A stretch of DNA of 37,529 bases, from positions 1 through 37,529 of the IMG/VR virus record IMGVR_UViG_3300020000_000043. One strand, written 5' to 3'. Positions 4,682-24,122 of this stretch are shown one piece after another. The notes below the pieces were generated by a model that was given only the letters and a program-made list of their open reading frames with translations, was not told the DNA's origin and did no database searches. Position 1 is the first letter of the stretch; every line of letters begins with the position of its first letter. Source of the DNA: a virus. Both the position numbers and the translations under genes were made by a program.

Positions 4682-4853
4682 ATATAATATTTCAATAAAA
4701 GACATAGAAACCAAGCATGGCATTGCAAAGCTTGAGCATGACGGCTTCTCAAGACAAGATATTATGCACGGCATGTACAAGCTTACAGATGGCCTTCCTC
4801 AGCACAAAAGAACTGAGCTGGTCAAAGAGCTTTTTAATCGCAGGGAGAAGTAA
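4671..4853 (+). CDS. Small hypothetical protein after portal
   Basis: 60 aa, MSNKYNISIK to FNRREK. Charged, predicted helical, with no cysteine motif or membrane segment; I do not recognise a family. It overlaps the portal end by 11 bp and its stop is directly followed by the next ATG, so it is translated as part of the portal-scaffold cluster. The AAGGAG-like site lies inside the portal coding end (about 4660). Confidence 0.7.
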   Translation: MSNKYNISIKDIETKHGIAKLEHDGFSRQDIMHGMYKLTDGLPQHKRTELVKELFNRREK

Positions 4854-5420: not shown

Positions 5421-5553
5421 TTGACAAATATAACAATTTTTCATTACTATGAAATTATTAACGTCGCCAAACGAAAACTATGGCTGCCTCTTCGTGCACA
5501 AACGAAGCTTTTCACGGTGACACCGAAAATAAGTCAAAAAAGTAGGATTTTAA
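5421..5553 (+). promoter_or_regulatory. Late promoter and structured leader of the scaffold/coat genes
   Basis: Perfect -35 TTGACA (5421-5426) and -10 TACTAT (5445-5450, spacer 18; TTACTA gives 17). The resulting leader of about 95 nt holds a 6-bp hairpin CTTCGT/ACGAAG (5490-5507, 6-nt loop) and a small palindrome CGGTGACACCG (5515-5525) before the scaffold start. There is no coding sequence here. The promoter lets scaffold and coat be made in excess of terminase and portal. Confidence 0.65.
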
Positions 5554-7742: not shown

Positions 7743-8504
7743 ATGACAACTTACAAATCATATAACACAGCGCCATTTGCATTCATTAATGGCCTGGGCA
7801 TTAGCAATAATGCCACCACCCCTAACACCAAGCTTGATATCGCAGCGGGTTCTACTTTGGATTCAACTGGAACTTTTCAGTTGACCTCAACTGCTACGAT
7901 TACCATTAATGCTGCTAATAGCGGCTTAAATGGCTTGGATACAGGTACTTTTGCGGCTTCCAAGGTCTATGCGGTATTTTTAGTCGCCGACCCTGTAACT
8001 TTGCAGCCTATTGGTGCAATGCTGTCTTTGTCGTACACAGCGCCTTTAATGCCTTTCGGATATTCAGCCTTTGCTCTCTTAGGATTTGCAACAACTGATT
8101 CTTCAGTGCATTTCTTAAAAGGTTATTGGACTGATACCGATAGCACAACCCGTATCTTTATGTATGACGCGCCAATCGCTTGCTTGACAGGCGGTGTTGC
8201 GACCACATATGGTACTGGCGGTATTGCCTTAACAGCCTTTGTGCCTGCGATTAACAATCTGCCTGTTTATATTAATGCGGACTTAATACCAGGAAATGCT
8301 GCCGGTGATACGCTGAAGTTCCAGCCAGGAAACGGTACAGGTGATGCTATTACTATCACGGGCCAAGTCACGACTGTTCACATAACCCCGCAGGTTCTTG
8401 TATTGTCTCAACTTGTAACAGGTGTACCAACAATTAACTACAAAGTGACAAACGCAGGTGATACCGCTGCTGCTGCCGTTGGTGGTTATATCTTTACCCT
8501 GTAA
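7743..8504 (+). CDS. Putative head decoration or minor virion protein
   Basis: 253 aa, rich in Thr/Ala/Gly/Ser and predicted all-beta, without charged helices. Lies between coat and the gp4-like adaptor, where podoviruses often encode a head accessory or decoration protein. Good ribosome site (AGGATACTAAA before ATG). I do not recognise a family; a role on the capsid surface is inference. Confidence 0.6.
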   Translation: MTTYKSYNTAPFAFINGLGISNNATTPNTKLDIAAGSTLDSTGTFQLTSTATITINAANSGLNGLDTGTFAASKVYAVFLVADPVTLQPIGAMLSLSYTAPLMPFGYSAFALLGFATTDSSVHFLKGYWTDTDSTTRIFMYDAPIACLTGGVATTYGTGGIALTAFVPAINNLPVYINADLIPGNAAGDTLKFQPGNGTGDAITITGQVTTVHITPQVLVLSQLVTGVPTINYKVTNAGDTAAAAVGGYIFTL

Positions 8505-21410: not shown

Positions 21411-21438
21411 TTGAAACAAAATTATTTTGTGTTACATT
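21411..21438 (+). promoter_or_regulatory. Promoter for the hairpin/tRNA-like/lysis transcript
   Basis: TTGAAA (21411-21416), 16-bp spacer, TACATT (21433-21438). A start about 7 bases later would fall exactly at the long inverted repeat that begins at 21443. Confidence 0.5.
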
Positions 21439-21442
21439 GAAC

Positions 21443-21493
21443 TGTGGCATAGGTTTTTTCCTCATTCATGCGATCCAGTTTTCCTATGCCACA
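21443..21493 (+). ncRNA. Long leader hairpin before tRNA-like gene 1
   Basis: Perfect 11-bp inverted repeat TGTGGCATAGG (21443-21453) / CCTATGCCACA (21483-21493) enclosing 29 nt that begin with TTTTTT and end TTTT. It starts where the promoter's first base would be and ends 5 bp before the tRNA-like gene, so it could shape the 5' end of the precursor or be a separate small RNA. No ORF inside. Confidence 0.5.
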
Positions 21494-21498
21494 CCACT

Positions 21499-21601
21499 GA
21501 ATACAGTTGCGGAGCGGTTAAACGCGAATAGTTATTGTGGGTAACAATAATGCACTTCGGCCTATGGCCTACGTTGGTTCGAATCCAACCTGTATTCACC
21601 A
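21499..21601 (+). tRNA. tRNA-like gene 1, unusual 8-bp acceptor, anticodon unclear
   Basis: 103 nt. Acceptor GAATACAG (21499-21506) pairs fully with CTGTATTC (21590-21597); discriminator A and an encoded CCA (21599-21601). T arm GTTGG-TTCGAAT-CCAAC (21573-21589) is canonical. D arm GCG/CGC (21509-21525) has the GAGCGGTTAAA loop typical of class II tRNAs. The middle is about 13 nt longer than in Leu/Ser tRNAs and its best hairpin is TTATTG-TGGGTAA-CAATAA (21532-21550), whose 7-nt loop has no U at position 33; GGCC-TAT-GGCC (21559-21569) would be the variable arm. The 8+5 stem count is that of bacterial tRNA-Sec. An alternative 4-bp stem would show GTG (His). I cannot assign an amino acid. Confidence 0.65.
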
Positions 21602-23420: not shown

Positions 23421-23472
23421 AATAAAACCTACAAATTTATTTTGTGCTATGATATATTGGTTTTTTGAATAT

Positions 23473-23576
23473 GACAATAGTGGCAGAGAGGTCTATAGCT
23501 TATCTATACGTAAAGGCGGCGTGCGACTAGACGCAATACGCTTGCTCGCGAGTTCGAATCTCGCCTATTGTCACCA
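23473..23576 (+). tRNA. tRNA-like gene 2, unusual 8-bp acceptor, anticodon unclear
   Basis: 104 nt. GACAATAG (23473-23480) pairs with CTATTGTC (23565-23572), discriminator A, encoded CCA (23574-23576). T arm GCGAG-TTCGAAT-CTCGC is perfect and adjoins the acceptor. The D region GGCAGAGAGGTCTATAGCT has a short GGC/GCT stem and a class II-type loop. The 47 nt between D and T arms do not give a 5-bp stem with a 7-nt loop and U33; the best hairpins are TATAG/CTATA and GCGT/ACGC (8-nt loop). Same build and length as gene 1. A TATGAT box lies at about 23447. Confidence 0.62.
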
Positions 23577-23581
23577 GATAT

Positions 23582-23753
23582 GACACTCTCGGCGTTGACA
23601 GTGAAACGCTATAATCACTAAAGTAACGGCGGTGAAACAGTGTATAAAAGATATTCTATAGCTCAACTGGTAGAGCAGAGCTGTCGCAACGGCCCTGGAT
23701 GTAGGTTCGAGTCCTGCAAATATCATAGCAAGTGCAATTCTTGCAGAGTGTCA
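23582..23753 (+). ncRNA. tRNA-like structure 3, split by another tRNA-like sequence
   Basis: GACACTCT (23582-23589) pairs fully with AGAGTGTC (23745-23752), next to a 5-bp arm GCAAG-TGCAATT-CTTGC (23728-23744) and followed by A at 23753 but not CCA. After the 5' strand comes a GCG/CGC arm (23592-23609), as in gene 1, and a further stem TATA..CACT / AGTGTATA (23610-23646). This is the same 8+5 plan as genes 1 and 2, except that 76 nt (23650-23725) are lodged just before the T arm. Without them it would be about 96 nt. The T-loop TGCAATT is not canonical. Confidence 0.45.
23650..23725 (+). tRNA. 76-nt tRNA-like sequence nested in structure 3
   Basis: Contains classic box A and B: GCTCAACTGGTAGAGC (D arm, 23661-23676) and GTAGG-TTCGAGT-CCTGC (T arm). 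The ends GATATT/AATATC pair over 6 bp; C and A face each other at the seventh position. Four bases instead of two separate acceptor and D stem. The anticodon region (18 nt) gives GAGCTG/CGGCCC with one mismatch and a 6-nt loop TCGCAA; reading U33 gives CGC (Ala), but the geometry is poor. No CCA is encoded. Could be a decayed or divergent phage tRNA. Confidence 0.5.
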
Positions 23754-23939
23754 ACTGAACTCAATCAGCCTAGGTTATGATTGAGAGGTGGCGGCATACC
23801 TACCATAAGTATAGGGCTAGAACCCCTAGAGTGTCCTGCTAGGTCAGCAGTACAAGAGACCGAAGACGGTGAAAGCCCGTCGCTATGTCCTAGTCATGGT
23901 CGATTGGCTGGGACACCATTCGCTATTCGGGAATCAAGA
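23754..23939 (+). ncRNA. Structured non-coding stretch
   Basis: No believable ORF; instead a chain of hairpins: CTCAATCA/TGATTGAG (23760-23785), TAGGG-CTAGAAC-CCCTA (23812-23828), GACGG-TGAAAGC-CCGTC (23865-23881), an 11-bp stem TGTCCTAGTCA/TGGCTGGGACA with 8-nt loop (23886-23915), and CATTC...GAATG just before the next gene. AGAGTGTC occurs again at 23828-23835, so it could compete with 23745-23752 for GACACTCT at 23582. Probably part of a folded RNA that continues from the tRNA-like block. Confidence 0.45.
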
Positions 23940-24122
23940 ATGATAAATAAACATACTTATATATGCGAATGCTGCAAGCAGACATATAACAGCAATAGAA
24001 GTGATGCAGAAGCTATCAAAGAATTTCATCAAGGAATAAACTTGTTAGGTTATTATGATGACGAAGAGGCTGCTATTGTGTGTGATGATTGCTTCATAAA
24101 AATAATGAGAACCGTAAATTAA
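23940..24122 (+). CDS. Small zinc-ribbon protein
   Basis: 60 aa, MINKHTYICECCKQTY to FIKIMRTVN. CECC (9-12) and CDDC (about 49-52) form a treble-clef or zinc-ribbon pair around an acidic helix (SDAEAIKEF), a pattern frequent in small phage proteins of unknown role. The start at 23940 is preferred because the upstream in-frame part lies in the structured RNA stretch; no clear ribosome site is visible there. Confidence 0.65.
   Translation: MINKHTYICECCKQTYNSNRSDAEAIKEFHQGINLLGYYDDEEAAIVCDDCFIKIMRTVN

Follow-up and report, generated by a model that had tools for sequence, protein, structure and literature searches.

Genomic context and organization of the array

The window analysed here is the whole stretch of 37,529 bases of a virus record, whose genes include those for a terminase, a portal, an Hc3 connector, an endolysin and RecT/exonuclease. 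Its relatives according to TerL, at 63-67% identity, are environmental contigs, one of them binned as Legionella. Two non-coding islands, 21440-21601 and 23473-23919, are located between the structural genes and a set of small ORFs, and host an array of tRNA-like units. Among these units, “8+5” refers to an 8-bp acceptor stacked on a 5-bp T stem. The features of the array, all on the + strand, are the following:

21411..21438, + strand: promoter-like site of U0/U1, located ahead of both: TTGAAA-16-TACATT, the -10 being preceded by TG; it overlaps a repeated 19-mer
21443..21497, + strand: U0, an 11-bp hairpin TGTGGCATAGG/CCTATGCCACA with CCA directly after it (stem + ACCA)
21499..21601, + strand: U1, an 8+5 class-II tRNA-like RNA with a Ser-like D arm and an ACCA end
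23431..23449, + strand: repeat (89%) of the 19-mer upstream of U0/U1, here ahead of U2 and followed by TGCTATGAT, which is extended -10-like
23473..23576, + strand: U2, an 8+5 class-II tRNA-like RNA without anticodon arm and with an ACCA end
23582..23753, + strand: outer unit, with acceptor helix 23582-23589/23745-23752, T-arm-like hairpin 23728-23744 and A at 23753
23592..23619, + strand: D-arm-like hairpin of the outer unit, GCGTT-GACAGTGA-AACGC; pairing of its loop AGTGA with TCACT at 23615-23619 is possible
23650..23724, + strand: inner tRNA-like unit, inside the outer unit, with acceptor GATATT/AATATC, D arm 23661-23676, a CGCA-loop hairpin 23677-23696 at the place of the anticodon arm and T arm 23701-23717
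23828..23835, + strand: second AGAGTGTC, a rival partner for the 5' strand of the outer acceptor, behind the 5-bp/7-nt hairpin TAGGG-CTAGAAC-CCCTA
23886..23918, + strand: U5, an 11-bp hairpin TGTCCTAGTCA-TGGTCGAT-TGGCTGGGACA followed by CCA, resembling an acceptor/T minihelix

A gene for a small CxxC protein (23940-24122) lies directly 3' of the array, and a small CxxC gene likewise follows a tRNA-Asn in a related contig (L018, 2366 onward). Elsewhere in the window, an intergenic sequence before the scaffold gene (5461-5530, ACGTCGCCAAACGA ... ACGGTGACACCGAA) is conserved in related phages, including L004 (~4735-4815) and L027 (~1625-1705); with GTCGCC and GGTGAC able to pair, it looks like a structured leader RNA.

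Neighbouring units U0, U1, U2 and U5

ACCA is encoded after each of U0, U1, U2 and U5. Within the array, ARAGORN and Rfam each find U1 alone, which ARAGORN calls a tRNA-His of 103 nt, its 33.7 bits against RF00005 making it the sole unit over the cut-off of 29. U1 and U2 have D stems of 3 bp (the third pair of U2 being mismatched), D loops of 11 nt and long variable arms, and both display the elbow motifs of tRNAs, GG in the D loop and TTCRA in the T loop. Neither has the canonical 5-bp/7-nt anticodon arm, which is present in the class-II tRNAs taken as controls. The variable arm of U2 consists of a hairpin and a 3' AAU bulge, and pairing is possible between the loop of this hairpin, TAGA (23528-23531), and the linker TCTA (23503-23506). 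This pairing occurs in the register of the U2 relatives described below, but with only 4 bp it is not significant alone.

Two other assignments were rejected. The region of U5 (23831-23918) as a Twister-sister ribozyme reached 21.7 bits against a cut-off of 34, and the 3' core strand GGCGCUCAU is absent; the strand order of the locus is wrong for a permuted tmRNA.

The outer unit

The segment 23582-23753 had been described in the first-pass annotation as one tRNA-like unit within a second tRNA-like 8+5 structure, a description to which the sequence, the chance estimates and the position in the array now all lend support. All the sequence pieces on which it relied are present where it had placed them, and the ends of the segment do reproduce the 8+5 of genes 1 and 2, the same geometry closing U1 (21499-21601), U2 (23473-23576) and the outer unit. 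In the latter, GACACTCT (23582-23589) is perfectly complementary over 8 bp to AGAGTGTC (23745-23752), and this 3' acceptor strand begins exactly at the end of the hairpin GCAAG-TGCAATT-CTTGC (23728-23744). The combination of a perfect 8-bp acceptor, a 5-bp stem and a T.CRA loop is found three times in the window, against an average of 0.0067 in 150 dinucleotide shuffles of its sequence. When any loop sequence is accepted, four such structures are observed against 0.49 expected per window, so that a large part of the significance comes from the T-loop match. Over its two strands the window has seven further T-arm-like hairpins, and none of them (0/7) has an acceptor partner. The predicted ensemble probabilities are 0.97 for the outer acceptor helix and 0.98 for the outer T helix. 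The outer 8+5 helix exists and is not due to chance. Moreover, the unit starts 6 nt 3' of the CCA end of U2, a position which fits that of the next member of the array.

U1 and U2 end in ACCA, and no CCA is encoded after the outer unit, whose T loop TGCAATT is non-canonical. Its D loop holds no GG, so the elbow motifs of a canonical tRNA are not reproduced. Direct reading and folds agree on the absence of an anticodon arm, and the Rfam tRNA model RF00005 gave no match to the unit. An H-type pseudoknot in the D arm, formed by the AGTGA/TCACT pairing, is possible, although suggestive only: the pattern was found in 15/20000 shuffles, but 25 such patterns exist in the window over both strands, for which reason it was left out of the evidence.

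The inner unit

The inner unit was presented in the first-pass annotation as 76 nt with canonical D and T boxes; its D arm (GCTC-AACTGGTA-GAGC) and T arm (GTAGG-TTCGAGT-CCTGC) are indeed canonical, and its length is 75 nt. The acceptor comprises 6 bp stacked on a T stem of 6 bp, and the elbow motifs (GG in the D loop, TTCRA in the T loop) are present. At the place of the anticodon arm stands AGAGCTGT-CGCA-ACGGCCCT, a hairpin whose stem has 8 positions, one of them an A.C mismatch, and whose loop has 4 nt. As read from its sequence, the inner unit is devoid of an anticodon and cannot read codons. The idea that either the inner or the outer unit is a tRNA is not supported, neither having a usable anticodon arm. 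The inner unit matches RF00005 weakly (22.9 bits, under the cut-off of 29), and blastn against phages returned generic tRNA similarity only, for example with a mycobacteriophage tRNA-Trp over 59 nt. The 4-nt loops of the inner unit and of loci L152 and L199 are alike, in three cases only.

The nested cloverleaf has a predicted energy of -49.6 kcal/mol against -50.3 kcal/mol for the free optimum, a cost of only 0.7 kcal/mol. Over the whole ensemble of 172 nt, the probability predicted for the inner acceptor is only 0.20.

Homologues of the portal and endolysin led to many related phages. No relative of the inner or outer unit was found among 20 related-phage contigs searched with the DNA of the region, nor did a search of INPHARED return a relative carrying either unit. 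Three related contigs read at the syntenic place, in the endolysin neighbourhoods, have no such array. The sole match of one motif scan of viral_contigs (L054) proved to be a chance match in coding DNA.

Phage relatives of U2 and the linker/variable-loop pseudoknot

IMG/VR was scanned with three patterns that combine a class-II D loop with an over-long middle and a T arm, and 62 loci were retrieved; since these scans were designed around 8+5 and the class-II D loop, they show breadth and not frequency. Some of the 62 loci have a normal anticodon arm and are tRNAs of the ordinary or suppressor type, and in about 18 other loci that were read this arm is missing. The acceptors of L155, L201 and L202 are poor or broken. 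A model, R1, was built from L201, L204 and L208, leaving U2 out. Its best independent match was U2, with 63 bits, compared with about 48-52 bits for ordinary tRNA-Ser genes, while U1 obtained 40 bits, within the range of ordinary tRNA-Ser. R1 gave no match to the outer unit 23582-23753 with filters off, and thus no ground for placing it in the U2 family.

In about 11 of these U2-type RNAs, the 13-15 nt following the D stem do not form a hairpin and are complementary to the loop of the variable-arm hairpin. The paired strands differ from one RNA to another: CGCAGA/TCTGCG (L208), TGTGTG/CACACA (L204), CACTAG/CTAGTG (L193), TCCTAAA/TTTAGGA (L151), GCAACA/TGTTGC (L153), ACCCAG/CTGGGT (L195) and ATGCGC/GCGCAT (L206). 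Linkers paired with the loop of their own RNA outscored swapped partners (98 versus 74.9 +/- 4.0, 0/5000 permutations), and with a fixed downstream window the comparison of own and swapped partners gave 0/20000, also without U2. Six ordinary tRNAs used as controls had 0 linker/loop matches of at least 6. The second strand of the pseudoknot is in the hairpin loop in 10/11 cases. The comparison shows that U2, at the level of predicted structure, is one of a broader group of phage RNAs which lack an anticodon arm and mostly display a linker/variable-loop pseudoknot.

Three further RNAs of 144-145 nt (L131, L181 and L185) have a tRNA-type terminal stack around a large interior, and a compensatory acceptor change distinguishes L131 (GAGCGTCG/CGACGCTC) from L185 (GAGCGTTG/CAACGCTC).

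Comparison with T4 species 1 RNA

Within the tRNA array of T4, the rnaC gene (species 1 RNA) carries the annotation of a small stable RNA, and RNAC and RNAD are late T4 RNAs whose function is yet unknown (PMC9697503). We aligned the T4 sequence with five divergent Tevenvirinae homologues (n=6). The alignment backs a T arm and a terminal stem running on from it. It likewise backs a variable-arm hairpin, in which six pairs are doubly changed, and a pseudoknot of 6 bp between the linker and the variable loop, TTGAYG/CRTCAA, in which one change is compensatory. The score for covariation was higher than in 500/500 shuffles and in all slid controls. The 5' strand of the terminal stem, CGRUYCG, covers 7 positions and the stem is imperfect in T4, with two U.U. 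An 8+5 stem, ACGGAACG/CGTTTCGT, derived from the R1 hit on T4, was rejected as it is mismatched in every other homologue.

Similarly to the RNAs of the window and the U2-type RNAs, rnaC is located in a tRNA array, carries its terminal stem on the T arm, which in rnaC is canonical, and has no anticodon arm; with the U2-type RNAs it also shares a variable-hairpin loop paired with the upstream linker. It differs from the units of the window in its 7-position terminal stem instead of 8 bp, its length of 139 nt and the absence of an inner tRNA-like domain, and has no sequence similarity to them. Of this architecture, the terminal stem and the T-like arm alone are demonstrated in the outer unit. T4 species 1 RNA apparently has the same plan as the U2-type RNAs, a link which would provide a laboratory system for an RNA of unknown function.

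Comparison with other known systems

The 8+5 (8/5) acceptor/T stack of U1, U2 and the outer unit, together with the long variable arm of U1 and U2, recalls tRNA-Sec. However, the D arm of tRNA-Sec has 6 bp and 4 nt, compared with 3 bp and an 11-nt loop in U1 and U2 and 5 bp and 8 nt in the outer unit; the units of the window also lack its UCA anticodon arm, and there is no Rfam match to tRNA-Sec. In tRNA-Sec, the 8-bp acceptor lowers EF-Tu binding ~100-fold (PMC7609411), a weakening which fits a role outside elongation.

Polycistrons of allo-tRNA-like RNAs from soil metatranscriptomes, composed of irregular tRNAs (Mukai 2017, as reviewed in PMC7609411), resemble the window in that they are clusters of irregular tRNAs whose acceptors are long and of which some have extra loops, and according to the same review irregular allo-tRNA-like RNAs are not charged by E. 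coli enzymes. As the review describes them, allo-tRNAs have 8/4 or 9/3 stacks (12 bp), whereas the units of the window have 8/5 (13 bp), and the U2-type RNAs are set apart from that description by the absence of an anticodon arm and the presence of a pseudoknot. Our literature search found no description of these anticodon-less phage RNAs, the allo-tRNA polycistrons being compared through the review's account; some of the irregular RNAs of those polycistrons might be of the same kind.

GOLLD and ROOL are, as in the window, phage non-coding RNAs near tRNA islands, but they are much longer (many GOLLD exceed 800 nt) and of another structure, and neither has an Rfam match in the window. GOLLD RNA sometimes carries tRNAs in a linker (PMC12286853), which constitutes a precedent for a tRNA within a larger structured phage RNA. 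As for remodelled variable arms, T5 tRNA-Tyr offers a model, its variable arm differing from that of the host and resisting a loop-cutting defence nuclease (retron-Eco7; Septu in PMC13096335), but this tRNA decodes and has a normal anticodon.

Nature of the nested segment

In our reading, which we consider to have an even chance of being right, the segment 23582-23753 is one member of a tandem series of tRNA-like RNAs that do not decode, and the outer unit is a stable RNA some 172 nt long, with an acceptor and T arm of tRNA type closing it and a tRNA-like domain in its interior. The plan common to the outer unit, rnaC and the L131/L181/L185 RNAs, a terminal stack around a large interior, favours one RNA of 172 nt.

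It is somewhat unlikely that the nesting instead results from an insertion, in which a second tRNA-like gene would have recombined into an 8+5 gene of 97 nt just before its T arm, the outer unit being an interrupted gene that is undecayed or still folding. This explanation is retained because the 97 nt left when the inner unit is removed resemble U1 (99 nt) and U2 (100 nt) without their CCA; the likeness had been pointed out before, with a length of about 96 nt. D, T and acceptor helices are all present within the inner unit itself, and tRNA genes sit within the GOLLD linker in other phages (PMC12286853). Yet an empty site or a relative was not found in the searches made, no flanking duplication was seen beyond a 5-mer, and the perfect outer helices imply that decay has not begun.

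The 5' strand 23582-23589 has a second possible partner, since AGAGTGTC recurs at 23828-23835, and this partner was chosen over 23745-23752 in one fold. Combined with the non-canonical outer T loop, the missing CCA and the expectation of 0.49 for an unrestricted loop, this points to an explanation in which the inner unit is all that matters and the outer 5' strand forms a chance or regulatory stem or pairs with the copy at 23828. We regard it as quite improbable, given the expectation of 0.0067 with a T-like loop and a site 6 nt after U2 in an 8+5 array. A graveyard of decaying phage tRNA genes would account for the absence of canonical anticodon arms, the success of U1 alone with tRNA detectors and the broken acceptors of the possible relatives L155, L201 and L202, but is very unlikely for the whole cluster, as perfect 8-bp acceptors, replacement hairpins and covarying pseudoknots are not products of decay and a promoter-like sequence is repeated and common to U0, U1 and U2.

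Putative processing and role

The acceptor/T stack is recognised by RNase P and 3'-end enzymes. For the array of non-decoding units proposed here, those of the host could cut the units from a common transcript, the tRNA-like ends serving as processing and stability devices and the altered interior being the working part. A cut by RNase P also at 23650 would leave two pieces held by the 8-bp helix and no spliced 97-nt tRNA. The joined 96-nt species envisaged in the first-pass annotation finds no support beyond length arithmetic, and we know of no bacterial enzyme that would ligate the outer halves into it.

Phage tRNA arrays are usually seen as decoding supplements. RNAs with all the handles of a tRNA except an anticodon cannot decode and, if expressed, would point to a further way in which phages employ the tRNA fold, possibly as processing and stability ends or as decoys for tRNA-targeting immunity; the nested unit would add an RNA in which one tRNA-like fold is enclosed by another. 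The role of a processed, stable, non-decoding RNA falls, in our estimation, just short of an even probability. The interior might mimic class-II tRNAs and thereby occupy or resist host tRNA-binding or tRNA-cutting factors, the role of a decoy for tRNA-targeting host factors being unlikely. More tentatively, and with less than even confidence, we propose that tailed phages commonly encode non-decoding RNAs which retain the acceptor, D and T arms of a tRNA and whose anticodon arm is replaced by a pseudoknot of the linker with the variable-arm loop, that T4 species 1 RNA is a long-known example of this architecture and 23582-23753 a nested variant, and that they would be tRNA mimics aimed at host proteins which bind or cut tRNAs.

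Further irregular tRNA-like RNAs in phage contigs

Most of the irregular tRNA-like units received no ARAGORN call, and tRNA finders miss most anticodon-less tRNA-like RNAs. In one phage contig (L153, 6850-8900), a tmRNA and normal tRNAs are accompanied by several additional tRNA-like units of irregular form, of which the one at 8002 has an 8+5 stack and a 6-bp/4-nt D arm as in tRNA-Sec, others being short and without anticodon arm. Two tiny tRNA-like units near a CsrA-like gene (L151, 2327-2395 and 3367-3437) both comprise an acceptor, a T arm and a single hairpin, without anticodon arm. Class-II tRNAs with stop-codon anticodons (CTA, TTA, TCA) in L154, L156, L158 and L159 are probable suppressor tRNAs. 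A tRNA-Tyr-like RNA with a normal anticodon arm displays a large structured insertion in the D-arm region (L161 372-527, identical to L166 3777-3932), and a smaller, unannotated case of insertion in this region occurs in Escherichia phage Mangalitsa (L068 533-630). Finally, a permuted (two-piece) tmRNA with the tag ANDSVYALAA is present in a phage contig (L078 6385-6774; Rfam RF04321, 119 bits).
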